NCBI GenBank assembly: GCA_015232395.1
Contig: JADFZT010000052.1
Coordinates: 1,523-35,574, forward strand
Length of the DNA: 34,052 bases
Direction of reading: 5' to 3'
Source of the DNA: Magnetococcales bacterium
GTDB lineage: Bacteria > Pseudomonadota > Magnetococcia > Magnetococcales > JADFZT01
In this document: piece after piece, positions 2 through 8,888 of the stretch
Position numbering within the stretch: the first letter of the stretch is position 1
Layout: the number at the start of each line of letters is the position of its first letter
The notes under the pieces: model-generated
The model's input: only the letters and a program-made list of their open reading frames with translations
Database searches by the model: none
Told to the model about the DNA's origin: nothing
Position numbers and translations under genes: made by a program

Positions 2-151
2 CAGTTTGGATTCCAGCGGGGAGCCTTTCCCATTGCCGAAAAGATCGGCGATCAAACCCTCTCCCTGCCCCTCTGGGTGGGGATGAATGAAGAGCACGTG
101 GCTTATGTGGCAGATACCGTCAAGAAAACTGTCGGGCCGTTGGTCTGCTGA
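2..151 (+). CDS. DegT/DnrJ/EryC1/StrS-family sugar aminotransferase, C-terminal fragment
   Basis: Only the last 49 codons are in the window; the gene begins upstream. The visible tail contains FPIAEKIGDQTLSLPLW followed by a helix ending KKTVGPLVC. This matches the C-terminal signature of PLP-dependent DegT/DnrJ/EryC1/StrS aminotransferases, where a 'P.AE......LSLP' segment precedes a helix of the type 'EEQ..YV...'. These enzymes transfer an amino group to keto-sugar nucleotides for surface polysaccharides. That fits the glycan-type operon converging from the right, but the catalytic lysine region is not visible and the substrate cannot be told. The reading frame ends in TGA. Confidence 0.72.
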   Translation, partial: QFGFQRGAFPIAEKIGDQTLSLPLWVGMNEEHVAYVADTVKKTVGPLVC

Positions 152-1474: not shown

Positions 1475-2374
1475 TCACCTGAAATCCTTGAACAGAGGAA
1501 TCACCAACCTCAACACCTCATCCGAAAGAAAAAAAGGACTCGAAACCCGCTCTATCGATCCCCTCTCCCCTACCGGCGTCCTGCTCAACCGCCACCCCCA
1601 CTGCAACCAATTACCCGCAATATCCACCACCGTGCGAATCACCGTCCCAATCCGCGTCCCCTTCGCCTCCCCCTCACTCCTGGGAATAAAATTGATCGGC
1701 ACCTCAATAAAACGACTCCCACCATAATAGGAACGAATCAACATCTCCGGATTGACAAAAGGCGTCGTCCCCGACATCGGCAACCCCTGCACCGCCCGGG
1801 AACGATAAAAGGTGATGTTTTGAAAGTCGTGAAAGTTGGCCCCAAACAACATCCGCTGGGTATAATAATTGCCCAACGAAATCATCGCCTTCCACAAATT
1901 ATCCGAACGACCCCGAATGCGATAGATCGAACGAATCAACGGAATGTGACTCAAAATCCGCTCCGGCACCACCCGCACCCCCTGCACCACGTCATAATGG
2001 TTCAACAACTCCAAAAAAGTGCGCAGGTTGGTAATGTCATAAGACCAATCCACCGTCTGCCAAAAAAGATACTCCTTGCCCGCCGCCTGCACCGCCCTGC
2101 GACAGGAAAGCCCGACGTTTAAGTTTTTTTCGTTGTGAATCACCTTGAGCCTCGGCTCCCGCTTGGCCCAAGCATCCAAAATTTCCCCGGTACGGTCCGT
2201 AGAGCCGTCATTGACAAAGACGATCTCAAACTCCTCCACCGTCTCCTCCAAAAGCGCAATGGCCCGAGTGAGAAAACCATCCACCAACGCCTCTTCGTTC
2301 AATCCCCAAGAGAGAAGCGAAACGGAACGGTTGAACTTGGCACGCTCAAATGTCGGCCTGGCCAGATCGCTCAT
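1475..2374 (-). CDS. family-2 glycosyltransferase (polyprenyl-phosphate sugar transferase-like)
   Basis: A 299-residue GT-A fold protein without an obvious membrane segment. Near residues 14-60 are the GT2 opening strand (SVSLLSWGLNEE) and the nucleotide-sugar motif VFVNDGSTDRTGEIL. The usual 'DADLQ' metal site of dolichol-phosphate mannosyltransferase-like enzymes is replaced by QTVDWSYDI, so the acidic ligands would be the two Asp of DWSYD. It is the last gene of the seven-gene operon and overlaps the preceding membrane-protein gene by ATGA (2371-2374), suggesting translational coupling. GT2 enzymes of this type often charge a lipid carrier with a sugar, and the preceding gene is a flippase-like protein, so the two may act as a pair. 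Donor and acceptor cannot be deduced. Confidence 0.85.
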   Translation of the reverse strand: MSDLARPTFERAKFNRSVSLLSWGLNEEALVDGFLTRAIALLEETVEEFEIVFVNDGSTDRTGEILDAWAKREPRLKVIHNEKNLNVGLSCRRAVQAAGKEYLFWQTVDWSYDITNLRTFLELLNHYDVVQGVRVVPERILSHIPLIRSIYRIRGRSDNLWKAMISLGNYYTQRMLFGANFHDFQNITFYRSRAVQGLPMSGTTPFVNPEMLIRSYYGGSRFIEVPINFIPRSEGEAKGTRIGTVIRTVVDIAGNWLQWGWRLSRTPVGERGSIERVSSPFFLSDEVLRLVIPLFKDFR

Positions 2375-3456
2375 GAAGCCCCCCTCCCCCCTTCAGACAT
2401 CTTCCCGGTTTCCAAATGAGCATCCACCTCGTTGCGATAAATGAGATAAGCAAAAAAACCCGGCAACGCCGCCCCCAACGTCAAAATGCGATAAACAAAA
2501 AAGAGCGAACCATAGGCGATCATCGAAGGCATGGGCTCAATCCAACGACAGAGCTGATCAAAAGCCGCCTCCCCCACCCCAATCCCCCCCGGAGTCAGCG
2601 GAATGGTGTTGGCAATCAAAGTCCAGGCGGTAACAAAGGCATAATCCAGAAAAGCCAGCACCCCCCCCTCGGTAGAAAGCCCAATCAACACCACACTGGC
2701 AATCCCCAAAGCCTGGGACAATACCGAAAGCCCCAACGCCCCAAAAAGCAACGGAATCGCCCGACGATAGAGCTTCACCGCATCCGCCGCCCGACTCAAT
2801 ATCCGCTGAAGCAAACCATCAGGATTGGCCCAGACAAAACTCCGCAAGCGATCACTCTTCCACACCAACCAAAGCGTCAACAACCCCACCACTGGCCCCA
2901 CCACCAGCAAAAGCAAATTGATCATCGCCAAAATCCGCAACGGTGGATTGCCCATAATCGCCTCGGGATTGAGAAAAGCCGCCACCAACCCCAGCAACAA
3001 CAGCGCATAAAACCCAATCGCCCGATCCACCAGGACCGAAAGCGCCGCCCCCCCCCGATTGTGCTTGGTGGCCTGAATGGCATAAGCCACCCGCAAAGCA
3101 TCCCCCCCCAACAAGCCGCCCGGCAAAAAAAGACCGAAAAACATCCCGATAAAAGTGACCTGGATCGCCTTCATCCGGGAAAGGGGAATCTCCTGGGAAA
3201 CCAAAAGCAGGTGCCAGCGAAAACCCGCCAGCAAAAAGACCGTCATGGTCATCCCCACCACCCCAAAAACCAACCACGGCTCCAAAACCAGCTCCCCCAT
3301 CACCGCCAAATCCAAGCGATTTTGATGAAGCAAAAAGAGCAGCAACAGCACCGCAGAGAGGAGCTTGACCCAAAAAAGCCAACGCTTGCCCGGCTTCTTT
3401 TTCGGCTCGGAATTGGAATCGTGCCCCCCAACCATCTCCTTTCCCCCATCAGTCAT
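2371..3456 (-). CDS. UPF0104 / lysylphosphatidylglycerol-synthase transmembrane-type membrane protein
   Basis: A 361-residue multi-pass membrane protein. After a short charged N-terminus (residues 1-25) there are about eight hydrophobic helices. The family marks FLPGGLLGGDALR and LVDRAIGFYALLLLG, and later NTIPLTPGGIGVGEAAF, are typical of the LPG_synthase_TM/UPF0104 family, whose members sit in glycan and lipid pathways as putative flippases. The frame is open a further 111 codons upstream, but that stretch overlaps the WbqC gene and reads as low-quality Trp/Gly-rich sequence. I place the start at ATG 3454-3456, which follows a purine-rich GGGGAGGGG and overlaps the previous gene by 8 bases (ATGACTGA). 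It overlaps the next gene by ATGA. Confidence 0.85.
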   Translation of the reverse strand: MTDGGKEMVGGHDSNSEPKKKPGKRWLFWVKLLSAVLLLLFLLHQNRLDLAVMGELVLEPWLVFGVVGMTMTVFLLAGFRWHLLLVSQEIPLSRMKAIQVTFIGMFFGLFLPGGLLGGDALRVAYAIQATKHNRGGAALSVLVDRAIGFYALLLLGLVAAFLNPEAIMGNPPLRILAMINLLLLVVGPVVGLLTLWLVWKSDRLRSFVWANPDGLLQRILSRAADAVKLYRRAIPLLFGALGLSVLSQALGIASVVLIGLSTEGGVLAFLDYAFVTAWTLIANTIPLTPGGIGVGEAAFDQLCRWIEPMPSMIAYGSLFFVYRILTLGAALPGFFAYLIYRNEVDAHLETGKMSEGGRGAS

Positions 3457-4171
3457 GATTCCCCTCCCCGCCCCCCAAGGAAGCCCCCTTCCCAGCCAAC
3501 AGCGCCAAACTCTCCGGCCCCACGTTAAAAAGCAGATCCAGAGTCGAAAGATAGGGAACAAACCCCCCATGGAGCTGGGGATAGGTGGGGTGCTGATAAT
3601 TTTGCCACTCCACCCCAATCCCGGCCTCCGCAAAAAGATCCCCATCCAGATAATCCCGGGCGCTGTCCCCGGTGAGATAGGTATCGGCCCCAAAGTGCTG
3701 GCAAAGCGCCACCAACCGGCCACTTTGACCACCCCCAACACCCAGCTCGCTCGACCGATGAAGAGGCCGTTCAAGCCCCAGCCAGCCACACATCCTTTCG
3801 ATCAACGCCAAATCCAAATCCACCAGCCTCTGCCAAGGGTGTCGCAACACCTCCCCCAAGCCGGGCAGATAAAGATCCCGAAAGGGCGCCCGGGCGTAGA
3901 GTTGGGAGAGGGTGTTGAGCTGCTTTTTCCCCCAGGGGCGGCTGTTGTCGATGTCGATATCCATGATTCGCGGTTTGGCGAGACCCTTGTGACGCACCGG
4001 CACCGTCAGCCATACCGGACCTGAAGCTGACTTCACCCGGTTGCGGTTGCGCCAGCCGTTTTTGTCAAACTGCACATCGTCGTAAAAAACAAAATGGTCC
4101 GCCCGCTGCATCTGATCAAAAAATCCGAGCCAGGGGAGATAGCCCGGTTGCAGGACCGCCAGCGTGGTCAT
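3449..4171 (-). CDS. WbqC-like family protein
   Basis: A 240-residue soluble protein that opens with LAVLQPGYLPWLGFFDQM, then YDDVQFDKNGWRNRNRVK and VWLTVPV, the N-terminal signature of the WbqC-like family. The family is common in O-antigen and capsule loci, often beside DegT aminotransferases and acetyltransferases, and has been proposed to help acylate amino sugars; no activity follows from this sequence alone. A longer in-frame start exists 23 codons upstream, inside the acetyltransferase gene. I prefer ATG 4169-4171 because the conserved family start begins there and it forms an ATGA overlap with the upstream stop. Length agrees with the family. Confidence 0.85.
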   Translation of the reverse strand: MTTLAVLQPGYLPWLGFFDQMQRADHFVFYDDVQFDKNGWRNRNRVKSASGPVWLTVPVRHKGLAKPRIMDIDIDNSRPWGKKQLNTLSQLYARAPFRDLYLPGLGEVLRHPWQRLVDLDLALIERMCGWLGLERPLHRSSELGVGGGQSGRLVALCQHFGADTYLTGDSARDYLDGDLFAEAGIGVEWQNYQHPTYPQLHGGFVPYLSTLDLLFNVGPESLALLAGKGASLGGGEGNHD

Positions 4172-4782
4172 GACAGCCCCCCCTCCCGCCACTCCGCCGC
4201 CATCAAACCCAAAAGATGTACATTGTGATGGCTCCCCCAACGAAAGGCATGCTGGCGCAAAATCCCCTCATCCTGAAAACCCATCTTCCGATAGAGCGTC
4301 AGAGCCCGCTCGTTATAAGCCACCACCCGGATCCAGATTCGATTCAGCTCCAAGAGATCAAAGGCATAATCCACCATCAGCCCCAGCGCCTCTCTTCCCA
4401 GCCCCCGGCCCTGGCGGCTCTTCTCGCCGATGGTCAGCCCCAGCTGGGCGGTGCGGTCGTGGCGGTCGATATCACTGAGCTGGATAAAACCAACCAGCAC
4501 CCCATCGCTGAGATCCTCCACCCCCAACACCAACCGGTTGGACTCCCGCTCTTCCAAAATCCGCTGATACCACCGCTCCTCCTGCTCTCTGGAAACCGCC
4601 CCGGGATAGCCCAGGACGTTGTCCCGAATTTCCGGATCGTTGCGCCAGGGCAGGGAGCGATCCAGGTCGGTGATTTGAACCGGACGCAGGCAGACCCGCT
4701 GGCCGGTCAGATGTACGGGGGAGGCCAAGTCGGAAAGATCCCCGTCAGGAGCTGGAAAGCCCTCCCGGCTTGAATCACTCAT
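4168..4782 (-). CDS. GNAT-family N-acetyltransferase (RimJ/RimL type)
   Basis: A 204-residue protein with the Acetyltransf_3 layout. Residues 24-60 have LTGQRVCLRPVQITDLDRSL and WRNDPEIRDN. The acetyl-CoA pyrophosphate loop appears as RQGRGLGREAL, followed by the typical ELNRIWIRVVAYNERALTLY and YRKMGFQDEG ending. Within surface-glycan clusters such enzymes usually N-acetylate an amino sugar made by a DegT aminotransferase, and one such enzyme ends at the left edge of this window. It is coupled on both sides by ATGA overlaps (upstream with asnB, downstream with the WbqC gene). Protein-acetylating relatives cannot be excluded. Confidence 0.85.
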   Translation of the reverse strand: MSDSSREGFPAPDGDLSDLASPVHLTGQRVCLRPVQITDLDRSLPWRNDPEIRDNVLGYPGAVSREQEERWYQRILEERESNRLVLGVEDLSDGVLVGFIQLSDIDRHDRTAQLGLTIGEKSRQGRGLGREALGLMVDYAFDLLELNRIWIRVVAYNERALTLYRKMGFQDEGILRQHAFRWGSHHNVHLLGLMAAEWREGGLS

Positions 4783-6677
4783 GAAACGCCTCCCCGCCCC
4801 AAGCCATGAAAGCCACTGTGATTTTCAAAAAAACGGTTCCACCAGAGCTGAAACACCATCAAATTCCAGATCCGGTTTCCATGATTACCCCGCCCGGCAT
4901 AGTGATCGTCAATCAAGATCCCCACCCGCTCGGGCAGCAACAAGCCGTGCCTCTCCAGAGCGCCCGCCGACAGGGTCTCCCGCACAAACCCTTCCAGCTT
5001 TTGTAAAATCCATTCGTTGATGGGCATGATAAACCCCTCCTTGGGCCGATCCACCAGATCAGCTGGCAGGAGATCCTTCACCGCTTCCTTGAGGATATGC
5101 TTGACCCTGCCCCGTTTGATTTTCATCCCCCCCGGCAACTGCCAGGCATAAGCGATCATGCGGGGATCCAGAAAGGGGGGACGCACCTCCACGGAGTGGG
5201 CCATGGAGAGCCGGTCCACAAAGGGAAGCACCTGATCCGAAAGGATGGTCTTCGAATCGAGATAGAGCTTACGATTCAGAGGATCGGTGGTGTGGCTCTC
5301 ATGGAGGTATCGCGCCACCAGGGCTTCGGTGGAGACCCCCGCCACAGCAGCCCGCATCCGGGGGGTATAGAGATCCTGCTTCATCGCTTCATCGGCGATA
5401 TATTGCCCCATGCGCCCCGAAGCCTCCCCACCCCGATCAAGAATTGCTGCCAGCCACTCGGTTTGATCTTCAAAGGGAGCCAACCGCGCCAGATCTTCCT
5501 CGTCAAAATCCCCCATCCGCTGCCGGTGACGTTGCAGATAATCCAGCGGCTGGGCCAGACGGTGGGGAAGATAGCTGCCGAAGAGTTCATCCGCGCCATC
5601 CCCGGAGAGGGCCACCTTGACATGGCGGGCGATGGATTCGGTGACAAAATAGGTGGAGATCACCCCGGAAAAGGGTTCATCAAAAGCATCGATCACCGCT
5701 GGAATGGCATCGGTCAAATCCTGGCTGGTGATGGTGTGCTCGTGGTGGTGGGTACCATACATTTCAGACACTTGCCGGGCAAAGCGGCGGTCGGCATTCT
5801 TGTGGGGCAGCTCATCGCTGTAGGTGAGGGTAAAAGTCTCGATCGGTCTATCGTGCAAGCGGCTCATGAGGGCCACCACACTGGAGCTATCCAAACCACC
5901 GGAAAGGTAGGCCGCAAAGGGCACATCCGAGCGCATCTGCAAGCGGACGCTATCGGTCAAAATATCCCGGATGGTGGCCCCGGCACGCTCCTCATCGATC
6001 TGGTCGTCCTCCGCAAAAGCCCCCCTCCACCAACGCTCCCGGGTGATCTCCCCCCCTGCAAAAATCAAACACTCCCCCGGAGCCAGCTGCCCCATCCCCT
6101 TGAAGGCGGACCAGGGGGCGGGAATATTCTTGAAGCTGAAATAGTGGTGCAGGGCTGTCAGATCCGGCTCACGCTGAAATTTGGGATGGGCCAAAATCGC
6201 CTTCGGTTCGGAACCAAAGAGAAGCTCCCCATCCACCCGGGCAAAATAGAGGGGTTTGATCCCGGCATGATCCCGGATTAAAATCAGACGCTTGCGGGAT
6301 TGATCCCACAGGGCGATGGCAAACATGCCGTTGAGATGGTGGATGAATTCCAGCCCATGCTCTTCATAGAGGTGAACGATGGTTTCCGAATCGGCATGGT
6401 GGGAACGAAAGCGGTGGCCCCGGGCTTCCAGGGTGGTGCGGAGTTCGGGATGGTTGTAGATCTCGCCGTTGAAGACCGCCACGATGGAGCGATCCTCGTT
6501 GAAGACCGGCTGCTGACCGGAAGCCAGATCGATAATCGCCAACCGCCGCATGCCCAGGGCAATCCCCTCCCCCAGCCACATCCCCGCCTCATCCGGCCCC
6601 CGATGATGCAGGGTAGAGGTCATCCCTTCCAGGGTGCCCCCCTCCCCCGGCCCGGTAAATCCGCAAATACCGCACAT
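4779..6677 (-). CDS. asnB: asparagine synthetase B-type glutamine amidotransferase
   Basis: A 632-residue class II amidotransferase. The start is fixed by the catalytic cysteine: ATG at 6675-6677 gives MCGICGFTG, with Cys2 as nucleophile after Met removal, although the frame is open 45 codons further up. The glutaminase half shows HHRGPDEAGMW and NGEIYNH; the synthetase half has the ATP pyrophosphatase loop SGGLDSS (about 259-265) and SGDGADELFGSYLPHRLAQP. Its length is close to that of Bacillus-type AsnB. It could make asparagine, but AsnB-like proteins in polysaccharide loci (for example WbpS- or WbmI-type) amidate uronic acids. The operon context favours such a role, as an inference. No strong Shine-Dalgarno is seen in the 10-base gap upstream. 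Confidence 0.88.
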   Translation of the reverse strand: MCGICGFTGPGEGGTLEGMTSTLHHRGPDEAGMWLGEGIALGMRRLAIIDLASGQQPVFNEDRSIVAVFNGEIYNHPELRTTLEARGHRFRSHHADSETIVHLYEEHGLEFIHHLNGMFAIALWDQSRKRLILIRDHAGIKPLYFARVDGELLFGSEPKAILAHPKFQREPDLTALHHYFSFKNIPAPWSAFKGMGQLAPGECLIFAGGEITRERWWRGAFAEDDQIDEERAGATIRDILTDSVRLQMRSDVPFAAYLSGGLDSSSVVALMSRLHDRPIETFTLTYSDELPHKNADRRFARQVSEMYGTHHHEHTITSQDLTDAIPAVIDAFDEPFSGVISTYFVTESIARHVKVALSGDGADELFGSYLPHRLAQPLDYLQRHRQRMGDFDEEDLARLAPFEDQTEWLAAILDRGGEASGRMGQYIADEAMKQDLYTPRMRAAVAGVSTEALVARYLHESHTTDPLNRKLYLDSKTILSDQVLPFVDRLSMAHSVEVRPPFLDPRMIAYAWQLPGGMKIKRGRVKHILKEAVKDLLPADLVDRPKEGFIMPINEWILQKLEGFVRETLSAGALERHGLLLPERVGILIDDHYAGRGNHGNRIWNLMVFQLWWNRFFENHSGFHGLGRGGVS

Positions 6678-6687
6678 GAGCTGCCGA

Positions 6688-7863
6688 TCAGGAGCCGTCG
6701 GAGTGGGTTGGAGAGGAGGTGTGCGACGGAGAGAAAACCGCCCCCGGTGAGGAAGCGTCACCCTCTCCCGATACCCCCAGCTTTTTTTGGCGGCTCTCTT
6801 CCGCCTTGCCAATCACCTTCCAATAGTTGTGTTTCCAGCTGCGATAGCGCCAGTCGGGGCAGCTCGCACAGAGTTCAAGCTCCTTGCCCCGATTTTCCAG
6901 ATGAAGCGTCCGATAGTGTTCAAACCCCGCCCCATGCCAGATCCCGGCGATGGTATCGTCGTTGACGTTGCCCATGGAGGTTTTGGCGGCGATGTCAAAA
7001 CCGCACACCATGACGTTGCCCCGGGTATCGATGTTGAGGCGCTCGAACAAAAAGGGGCACGGGACGGTGTCGGTATCGATGTAGGGGGTATCGTCGGCAG
7101 AGCGATCACCATCCAGGGTGGTGTTTTCCCCCCAGGTGAGAAATTTCCGCTTGATGAAAGCATCGATACCGATCTCTTCCATCCAAAATTTTTCCGCCGC
7201 GTCCAGCACCACCCCCTTTTGATGCACCCCGGAAGCAACAATCCGGGAAACACCCCGGATCTCCTTGCGAATGGCCAGAAATCGCTTGACGTTGGTCACC
7301 AACGTGTCCCAATCGAGCCCCTTGCGCACCTCTTCGTAAACCGAAGCATCCGCCGCATCCACCGAAAATTCGATCATATCCACCCCGGCTGCCAGCAGCG
7401 CCCGGGAGTTCTCTTCATCAAAGAGGGAACCGTTGGTGATGAGGCCGATTTTGCAGCCTTGCGCCTTGGCGTAGAGAAACAGTTGCGTCGCCTGCTCGTG
7501 GAGCATGGGCTCCCCGCCACCGGAAATCCGCAGATAAGCCCCGTGGGGCCCCGCTTCGTCGGCGATTTTTTTAAACAGCGCCTCCCCCATGTAAGGGGCA
7601 TCCCGATAGCTTTGGCGAATGTTGGAGTTGGTATAGGGACAGTGGGGACATTTGGCGTTGCAGGGGTAGACCAGAGAGAGCACCAGCATCATGGGAAACG
7701 CCTGGGCTTCGGGGCGCAGGCCGTAATCGGACTGGGTGTGCTGAGGGGGCTGGTCAGGCTGGGGGGGCTGGTGTGGAGAGGCCTCTGACAGGTCGATCAT
7801 CCCCTCCTCCCGGGTCAACTCAAGAGGGGATAGGCTGGAGGGGGCCTCTGATGGGGGGCTCAT
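6688..7863 (-). CDS. radical SAM/SPASM-domain protein (second of pair)
   Basis: A 391-residue protein with the radical SAM cluster CNAKCPHC (Cys68, Cys72, Cys75), then YLRISGGGEPMLH and LITNGSL, the SAM-binding strands of the barrel. The C-terminal part has CPFLFERLNIDTRGNVMVCGFD and CASCPDW, the pattern of a SPASM domain carrying auxiliary iron-sulphur clusters. Both tails are Pro/Ser-rich and look disordered (residues 1-50 and after about 355). SPASM enzymes modify peptides, proteins or sugars such as aminoglycosides. Here it sits in a tight glycan-like operon, overlapping the first radical SAM gene by ATGA (7860-7863), so an unusual sugar or carrier modification is plausible but unproven. 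Confidence 0.85.
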   Translation of the reverse strand: MSPPSEAPSSLSPLELTREEGMIDLSEASPHQPPQPDQPPQHTQSDYGLRPEAQAFPMMLVLSLVYPCNAKCPHCPYTNSNIRQSYRDAPYMGEALFKKIADEAGPHGAYLRISGGGEPMLHEQATQLFLYAKAQGCKIGLITNGSLFDEENSRALLAAGVDMIEFSVDAADASVYEEVRKGLDWDTLVTNVKRFLAIRKEIRGVSRIVASGVHQKGVVLDAAEKFWMEEIGIDAFIKRKFLTWGENTTLDGDRSADDTPYIDTDTVPCPFLFERLNIDTRGNVMVCGFDIAAKTSMGNVNDDTIAGIWHGAGFEHYRTLHLENRGKELELCASCPDWRYRSWKHNYWKVIGKAEESRQKKLGVSGEGDASSPGAVFSPSHTSSPTHSDGS

Positions 7864-8888
7864 GGGTTGTTTTCCTGTTGTGGGTCAAACCAAAAAGGGC
7901 GGGTGCCAGCCAGGGTTTCCTCTTCATAATGCGCCCCGGCCACCTGCCAATCCCCACACCCCTGGCACAGCTCGGGCAGCTCCTGCCAGCGGTGTTCCCG
8001 GTGGAGCACCCGCAGCTTTTCGCCAAGAATCCCCCAAGCCTCTTTGACGGTCATCTCCCGAATGTTGCCCACCACAAAGCGTCCGTCATAGTCCACAGCA
8101 CAAGCAACCACCGTGCCGTCTTGATGGATGGCCATGGTGTTATTGGCCCAGGGGCAGGCAATGCGAAAATCGTCTCCATGGATGATGGTGTCACTGCGGA
8201 TCGATCCCTGAGCTCCCCACTCCAGCATGGGCCGCACCTTCACCTCCGCCCCCCGCTCCTGCCAATAGCGGCGATAGTCTTCCACCTCGTGGACATTTTC
8301 CTTCATGATGGAAAACTGTGCGGTAATCGATGGATAATCCTGCCCCCGCTCCAAGCGCCGGCGGCAAAGTTTTTCCACTGCGGGGTAAACCTTTGCCCAT
8401 TTGGCCGGTTTGCGGATTTTTTCAAAGGTCTCCTTGCTCAGGCCATCCAGGCTCAGGATAAATCGCTTGAGGGGAGAGTCGAGAATTTTTTCGATATTGT
8501 CCCAGCGATCCAGCAGGGTGCCGTTGGAGTTCAACACCAAATTTTCACACCCGACCTGATGGGCAAAATCCAGCCGCTGCCAGAGCTTGTCCTTGAGCAG
8601 AAAAGCCTCCCCGTAAAAGGTGGGCCACACCTCGCATTGGGGCATCTCTTGGGCCACTTCCGTGACGATTTTTTCCCAGAGATCCTGCGCCATGTGTTTC
8701 AATTCCCGGGTCATCTCCACATGGGCGCAGTGGCTGCATTTCAGATTGCAGTAAGAGGTGTTTTCCACCACCAACTGGGGGGGAAAGGGGTGCTCCACCA
8801 GGTCGCGCTCGATTTTGAGCAGCTCCTGGCGACGTTCAGGGTTGGATAGATGGGGGGTCAATCGGGAATAGTCCACCGGATCCCTCAT
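7860..8888 (-). CDS. radical SAM/SPASM-domain protein (first of pair, operon leader)
   Basis: A 342-residue protein with CNLKCSHC (Cys47, Cys51, Cys54) and the barrel strand NLVLNSNGTLL. Its C-terminal SPASM-type part has CPWANNTMAIHQDGTVVACA and CQGCGDWQ. It differs clearly from the next gene, so the pair is not a recent duplication. It is the first gene of the seven-gene operon. The ATG at 8886-8888 lacks a ribosome site, whereas a GTG four codons inside (8874-8876) is preceded by AGGG at good spacing, so translation may start there. The 725 bases upstream contain no gene and should hold the operon promoter, which I could not place. Confidence 0.85.
   Translation of the reverse strand: MRDPVDYSRLTPHLSNPERRQELLKIERDLVEHPFPPQLVVENTSYCNLKCSHCAHVEMTRELKHMAQDLWEKIVTEVAQEMPQCEVWPTFYGEAFLLKDKLWQRLDFAHQVGCENLVLNSNGTLLDRWDNIEKILDSPLKRFILSLDGLSKETFEKIRKPAKWAKVYPAVEKLCRRRLERGQDYPSITAQFSIMKENVHEVEDYRRYWQERGAEVKVRPMLEWGAQGSIRSDTIIHGDDFRIACPWANNTMAIHQDGTVVACAVDYDGRFVVGNIREMTVKEAWGILGEKLRVLHREHRWQELPELCQGCGDWQVAGAHYEEETLAGTRPFWFDPQQENNP

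Follow-up and report, generated by a model that had tools for sequence, protein, structure and literature searches.

What is the product of an operon led by two dissimilar radical S-adenosylmethionine (SAM) enzymes and continued by genes of surface-glycan type? The operon lies in a 34,052-nucleotide stretch of contig JADFZT010000052.1 from Magnetococcales bacterium (assembly GCA_015232395.1, positions 1,523 to 35,574 of the forward strand), hereafter the window, to which all positions below refer unless a contig or locus is named. The initial annotation of this DNA proposed a lipid-linked sugar or glycopeptide altered by radical chemistry, then amidated and acetylated. The analysis described here indicates that the five leading genes, together with a DegT-family sugar aminotransferase and an RmlB-like dehydratase, probably make up a conserved route to an unusual amino sugar, nucleotide-activated and destined for a cell-surface glycan, a reading to which we assign a probability of about 0.6. 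The genes, in the order of the operon and followed by the aminotransferase at the left edge (lengths in amino acids, aa), are:

7860-8888, minus strand: rSAM1, radical SAM/SPASM protein, 342 aa (Pfam Radical_SAM and SPASM)
6688-7863, minus strand: rSAM2, radical SAM/SPASM protein, 391 aa (Pfam Radical_SAM and SPASM)
4779-6677, minus strand: AsnB-type glutamine amidotransferase, 632 aa, starting MCGICG (Pfam Asn_synthase and GATase)
4168-4782, minus strand: GNAT N-acetyltransferase, PseH-like, 204 aa (Pfam Acetyltransf_3)
3449-4171, minus strand: WbqC family protein, 240 aa (Pfam WbqC, PF08889)
2371-3456, minus strand: UPF0104, flippase-like membrane protein, 361 aa (Pfam LPG_synthase_TM), accessory
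1475-2374, minus strand: GT2 glycosyltransferase, 299 aa (Pfam Glycos_transf_2), accessory
2-151, plus strand: DegT/DnrJ/EryC1 sugar aminotransferase, 3' end, the remainder lying to the left of the window on the same contig

The seven-gene minus-strand arrangement given in the initial annotation was confirmed exactly in its coordinates, overlaps and Pfam families, and all seven families score above their cut-offs. Five of the six junctions overlap, four of them through ATGA (rSAM1/rSAM2, AsnB/GNAT, GNAT/WbqC and UPF0104/GT2) and one, WbqC/UPF0104, through ATGACTGA. At the sixth junction, rSAM2/AsnB, the genes do not overlap but are separated by 10 bases. The operon is real and coupled, and it is the heart of a rare, conserved cassette. 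Its unusual part is, as had been noted, the pair of radical SAM/SPASM enzymes, which are 28% identical to one another. The DegT C-terminus recognized at the left edge is likewise genuine.

Recurrence of the cassette was followed with rSAM1 as the query in one-genome-per-species public contigs, in 48 genomes of the window's class and in 297 genomes of the order that includes Magnetospirillum sp. SS-4. The public contigs yielded matches of 61-66% identity in an uncultured Rhodospirillaceae bacterium (L052), a groundwater deltaproteobacterium (L053) and Magnetospirillum sp. SS-4 (L054). One further carrier was found among the sampled genomes of the window's class (G018), and four more carriers of the same set within the order of L054 (G851, G884, G789 and G874), whereas the search of plasmids gave no match. 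The nine carriers, window genome included, comprise two members of the window's class, six Rhodospirillales-type genomes and one deltaproteobacterial genome. The rSAM1 orthologs of the eight other carriers are 61-68% identical to that of the window, and in all nine genomes rSAM1, rSAM2, AsnB and WbqC lie next to or close to one another (41-71% identity); the G874 cassette is divided between two contigs. Very few genomes of the phylum sample (3 of 398) carry an rSAM1 homolog at the cassette level, and the close relatives of rSAM1 all reside inside such cassettes rather than mostly outside them. Genomes G597 and G564 carry an rSAM1 homolog and DegT, with AsnB not nearby. The leading genes are found side by side in unrelated genomes, so their arrangement is not due to chance. 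The sparse and scattered distribution suggests that the cassette spread horizontally.

The proposal of a single glycan-type pathway is upheld by this recurrence. rSAM1 is accompanied by four or more of the remaining six families in G018 (rSAM2, AsnB, GNAT, WbqC and GT2), in the deltaproteobacterial metagenome-assembled genome and in G851, G884 and G789; counting a distant UPF0104 or an outlying GNAT brings the Rhodospirillaceae and Magnetospirillum SS-4 genomes to four as well. The seven genes are not, as first thought, a single unit. The sole UPF0104 relative near the other cassettes is a 30% match near L052 and a GT2 relative is conserved only in G018 (44%); these two genes are therefore considered accessory and the five leading genes core. 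Conversely, the initial annotation missed the RmlB-like dehydratase and did not recognize DegT as a member of the set. Neither a glycopeptide nor a specifically lipid-linked product is supported. The deltaproteobacterial cassette adjoins a GT4 gene and an ABC-2 exporter pair (Wzm/Wzt-like), as seen at loci of exported polysaccharides. Taken together, the main inference of the initial annotation is partly supported, being right in kind and incomplete in detail.

The two added genes would supply the sugar. Orthologs of the RmlB-like 4,6-dehydratase occur in 9 of 9 genomes at 52-69% identity, compared with about 38% for the next paralogs, and the gene is located near or within the cassette in all eight genomes other than the window genome. 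There, the ortholog (61%) lies at the end of contig C62, and contig C52 has the DegT gene at its start. Simple AT-rich repeats occur at both of these ends, and the two genes may adjoin one another. DegT (PF01041, 398 bits) occurs within the cassette or elsewhere on its contig in 8 of the 9 genomes; in G874, no DegT was seen on the stretches examined, beyond which no wider search was made. The window copy of DegT is encoded by C52:532-1673 (L058), mostly outside the window (C52:532-1442).

The acylation step anticipated in the initial annotation is represented in every carrier. GNAT is present in eight of the nine genomes, being weakly similar in L053 and G789 and located in L054 about 5 kb beyond the cassette, behind transposase-like genes. 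In L052 a formyltransferase occupies the exact GNAT position between AsnB and WbqC, an exchange expected for an N-acylation step of an amino sugar. Judged by protein family, the 4,6-dehydratase, DegT aminotransferase and N-acyltransferase expected of a nucleoside diphosphate (NDP)-4-amino-4,6-dideoxyhexose pathway of the Qui4N or Fuc4N type are all present. For DegT and GNAT, PseC and PseH of the pseudaminic acid pathway are the top-scoring models or close to it; however, the scores are below the cut-offs (73.6 bits for GNAT against PseH, cut-off 93.1), the dehydratase is RmlB-like rather than of the PseB type, and PseG, PseI and PseF were not noticed in the cassettes.

Both radical enzymes are predicted to be of the BtrN type by motif and by the spacing of their cluster ligands. 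The CxxxCxxC motif comprises C47/C51/C54 in rSAM1 and C68/C72/C75 in rSAM2, and the auxiliary-cluster cysteines are C245/C263/C308/C311 and C269/C287/C332/C335, respectively. These cysteines are kept in 12 of 12 rSAM1 homologs, and the seven of rSAM2 in 11 of 11. The auxiliary spacing of 18/45/3 is identical in rSAM1, rSAM2 and BtrN (C169/C187/C232/C235), the twitch-domain 2-deoxy-scyllo-inosamine dehydrogenase that is the best solved relative of both proteins (E 2e-12 for rSAM2). The BtrN auxiliary cluster is ligated by four cysteines, and the enzyme oxidises an aminocyclitol alcohol by two electrons (PMC9012708). Since BtrN is a two-electron alcohol dehydrogenase, the likeliest reaction of rSAM2, as a first guess by analogy, would be a two-electron oxidation. 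Unlike the proteins described here, BtrN belongs to an antibiotic pathway, acts on an aminocyclitol, is about 250 aa long and has no DegT/WbqC/AsnB cassette. The second-best solved match to rSAM2 is BlsE, a cytosylglucuronate decarboxylase, which acts on a nucleoside-linked sugar but serves an antibiotic pathway, decarboxylates a uronic acid and has a different auxiliary motif (PMC3715490). In the thymidine diphosphate (TDP)-desosamine pathway, a radical SAM enzyme acts on the product of a DegT-type aminotransferase, a TDP-4,6-dideoxy sugar (DesI/DesII; PMC11434129). However, DesII is a deaminase for which no auxiliary or SPASM cluster is named in that paper, whereas both enzymes of the cassette have one, and the DesI/DesII pathway includes no WbqC, AsnB or GNAT. 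An epimerase-type hydrogen donor was considered for rSAM1 and dropped because the extra cysteines C85 and C114, common as they are, are not kept in all homologs.

The amidotransferase appears dedicated to the cassette. A tree that took in E. coli AsnB, six paralogs from the window genome and two AsnB proteins from other glycan loci placed the cassette proteins, including a distant copy from genome G067, in their own clade with 100/100 support, apart from all of these, the deep placement of the long-branched outgroups being unsure. The catalytic Cys2 is kept in all rows of a five-sequence alignment. The protein scores 299 bits against the asparagine synthetase equivalog model (cut-off 499), and a housekeeping asparagine synthetase was rejected on both this score and the separate clade.

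WbqC scores 263 bits against PF08889 (cut-off 21.3), is present as a single copy in the window genome and is 55-63% identical in the eight other cassettes. A back-translated stretch of conserved WbqC sequence led to ten E. coli genomes with an annotated WbqC gene, and the two regions opened were O123/O186-type O-antigen loci with the order rfbB, rfbA, wzx, DegT, WbqC, hypothetical protein and GNAT. As in the cassette, RmlB, DegT, WbqC and GNAT are found together, here with WbqC directly after DegT, and the known product is an aminoacylated 4-amino-4,6-dideoxyglucose. By contrast with the cassette, radical SAM enzymes and AsnB are absent from the stretch read, and the proteins are 27-36% identical. 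In the O123 repeat unit, the Qui4N nitrogen carries an N-(3-hydroxybutyryl)-D-alanyl group (PMC10609480). The gene set and the published glycan thus indicate that WbqC accompanies aminoacylation of a 4-amino sugar in O123, and by analogy WbqC may take part in such an aminoacylation, a correlation and not a proof. The name wbqC presumably derives from a locus like that of Shigella dysenteriae type 7. The glycan of that serotype contains N-acetylglycyl-Qui4N (PMC10609480). Two plasmid loci are in line with this association: DegT, a radical SAM gene, a methyltransferase gene and WbqC are consecutive on a Solidesulfovibrio plasmid, and on a Mariluticola plasmid a formyltransferase-like protein directly precedes WbqC in a pseudaminic-acid-type region. 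In Magnetospirillum SS-4 a second WbqC copy lies just downstream of a gene pair (L054:3502-6773) for a further radical SAM/SPASM protein and a 640-aa protein without a Pfam match, which share an N-terminal domain of about 90 residues.

From the gene content, co-occurrence, families, cluster ligands and AsnB clade, the reactions, their order, the sugar and its destination are proposed as follows. The RmlB-like enzyme would dehydrate NDP-glucose to NDP-4-keto-6-deoxyhexose, which DegT would aminate to NDP-4-amino-4,6-dideoxyhexose. The 4-amino group would then be acylated, probably with the help of WbqC in adding an aminoacyl group; the amine of that group would be acetylated by GNAT or formylated by the formyltransferase. 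AsnB, using glutamine, would convert a carboxylate, probably on the acyl group, to an amide. rSAM1 and rSAM2 would abstract hydrogen from a carbon of the sugar or of the acyl group, and would bind an auxiliary [4Fe-4S] cluster in the manner of BtrN. The acylation, amidation and radical steps are proposed in no fixed order. In the window genome only, GT2 and UPF0104 may mediate transfer to or across the membrane. A more specific version is offered tentatively, as less likely than not: a surface-sugar pathway not previously described, in which an N-aminoacylated 4-amino-4,6-dideoxyhexose is modified by two radical SAM enzymes of the BtrN type together with a dedicated AsnB, and WbqC is a new kind of amino acid-transferring enzyme.

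Several observations weigh against the main proposal. The likeness to BtrN is sequence-based, and the rSAM1 model (mean predicted local distance difference test score 58.8) is too poor for a fold search. The WbqC fold search returned no match below E 0.001, and the weak matches to a cytidylyltransferase, a pantetheine-phosphate adenylyltransferase and a cryptochrome were not used as evidence. The RmlB-like proteins score 327-331 bits against a cut-off of 365 for their best model, dTDP-glucose 4,6-dehydratase, and DegT scores 336 bits against a PseC cut-off of 423, with the ArnB and WecE models likewise below cut-off. In the window genome the RmlB-like gene is on a contig apart from the operon, so that linkage there is unproven. 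The DegT gene of that genome is interrupted by an 80-base N run and, in a C-run near C52:811, appears to be frameshifted by one base; both are probably, though not provably, assembly errors.

The data favour neither the sugar ring nor the acyl group as the target of the radical enzymes. In an alternative reading, an N-acylated 4-amino-4,6-dideoxyhexose of ordinary kind is the sugar, and the radical SAM pair and AsnB build an exotic acyl group before its attachment through WbqC; the group would be an amino acid-derived acid, radical-oxidised or rearranged and then amidated. Qui4N-type sugars indeed bear N-acetylglycyl, N-acyl-D-alanyl and modified pyroglutamoyl groups (PMC10609480). Pairwise divergence across eight genomes correlates for RmlB/DegT (r 0.86) and separately for rSAM2/AsnB (r 0.77) and poorly for most other pairs, although the 28 pairs depend on one another and are strongly influenced by the divergent L053 copy. 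These values hint at two sub-modules and keep the acyl-group alternative alive; the divergence of WbqC follows no other cassette gene (r at most 0.15), which counts against the pathway as proposed. The 6.6-kb contig of G067 can be read both ways. It has AsnB and both radical SAM types, with DegT and RmlB not on that contig, in the order fusion gene, rSAM1-like, AsnB and rSAM1-like, the first being:

L077:466-2289: G067 fusion protein, 607 aa, weak cytidylyltransferase-like domain and rSAM2 homolog

The fusion to a cytidylyltransferase-like domain (E 0.002, below the cut-off) argues against a role confined to the acyl group, as do the carbohydrate or sugar-like substrates of the closest solved radical SAM enzymes and the occurrence of rSAM1 homologs with DegT, AsnB not nearby, in G597 and G564. 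Overall this alternative is considered unlikely, although a serious contender.

Glycan loci are mosaic, gene order varies between the genomes and matches in the window genome number 11 (full-length) for the AsnB type and 43 for radical SAM, so the genes might be independent members of a surface-glycan region lying side by side by chance. The nine genomes, however, which represent at least two phylum-level groups, share the same orthologs and not just the same families, and they do so although rSAM1 homologs are so rare; a chance assembly is very improbable. A role in ribosomal-peptide maturation, in which AsnB would be a lasso-type cyclase, is scarcely credible and was rejected. SPASM enzymes often act on peptides and AsnB-type cyclases exist, but the 196 bits of AsnB against the lasso cyclase model are far under the cut-off of 525, neither radical enzyme has a recognition element for such peptides (PqqD-like domain), Pfam giving Radical_SAM and SPASM only, and the sugar-enzyme partners are constant across cassettes. 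A small open reading frame common to all cassettes was not seen, shorter frames not having been searched systematically; a protein of 116 aa is found beside only five.

That protein of about 116 aa, which starts MSLKI and has no Pfam match, adjoins five of the nine cassettes and is absent from the window genome, G018, G399 and G789. Its genes are:

L052:12011-12361
L054:8514-8858
L109:4651-5001
L110:5165-5521
L112:5285-5635

B12-binding radical SAM proteins are encoded near several cassettes, those of L052 and G018 among them (L052:5910-7433, L056:3459-4982 and L057:4494-5963), and possibly also take part in C-modification of the same glycans. Between DegT and the operon of the window, and convergent with the latter, positions 343-1350 encode a transglutaminase-core protein with a signal-like N-terminus, which is absent from the other cassettes examined. 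Adjacent genes for S-adenosylmethionine synthetase and S-adenosylhomocysteine hydrolase occur on the same contig at 31200-33745; their sharing a contig with a SAM-using operon is probably a coincidence. A consensus promoter scan was at chance level (3 found, 3.6 expected), and a terminator scan gave 21 where 13.0 were expected (standard deviation 4.2), a modest excess; neither provided anything usable.

A description of the cassette was not found in open-licence papers on radical SAM enzymes with AsnB and WbqC, on radical SAM enzymes in O-antigen or lipopolysaccharide, or on DegT or amino sugars with radical SAM enzymes, an absence that carries little weight. Sugar-acting radical SAM enzymes are known mainly from antibiotic pathways (BtrN, NeoN, DesII and BlsE). 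If the proposed pathway is correct, two radical SAM enzymes in the making of a surface amino sugar would extend such chemistry to bacterial glycans, and the cassette would provide a handle on the function of WbqC, a family so far unassigned. The cassette is a small, testable set of enzymes with at least one named host, Magnetospirillum sp. SS-4.

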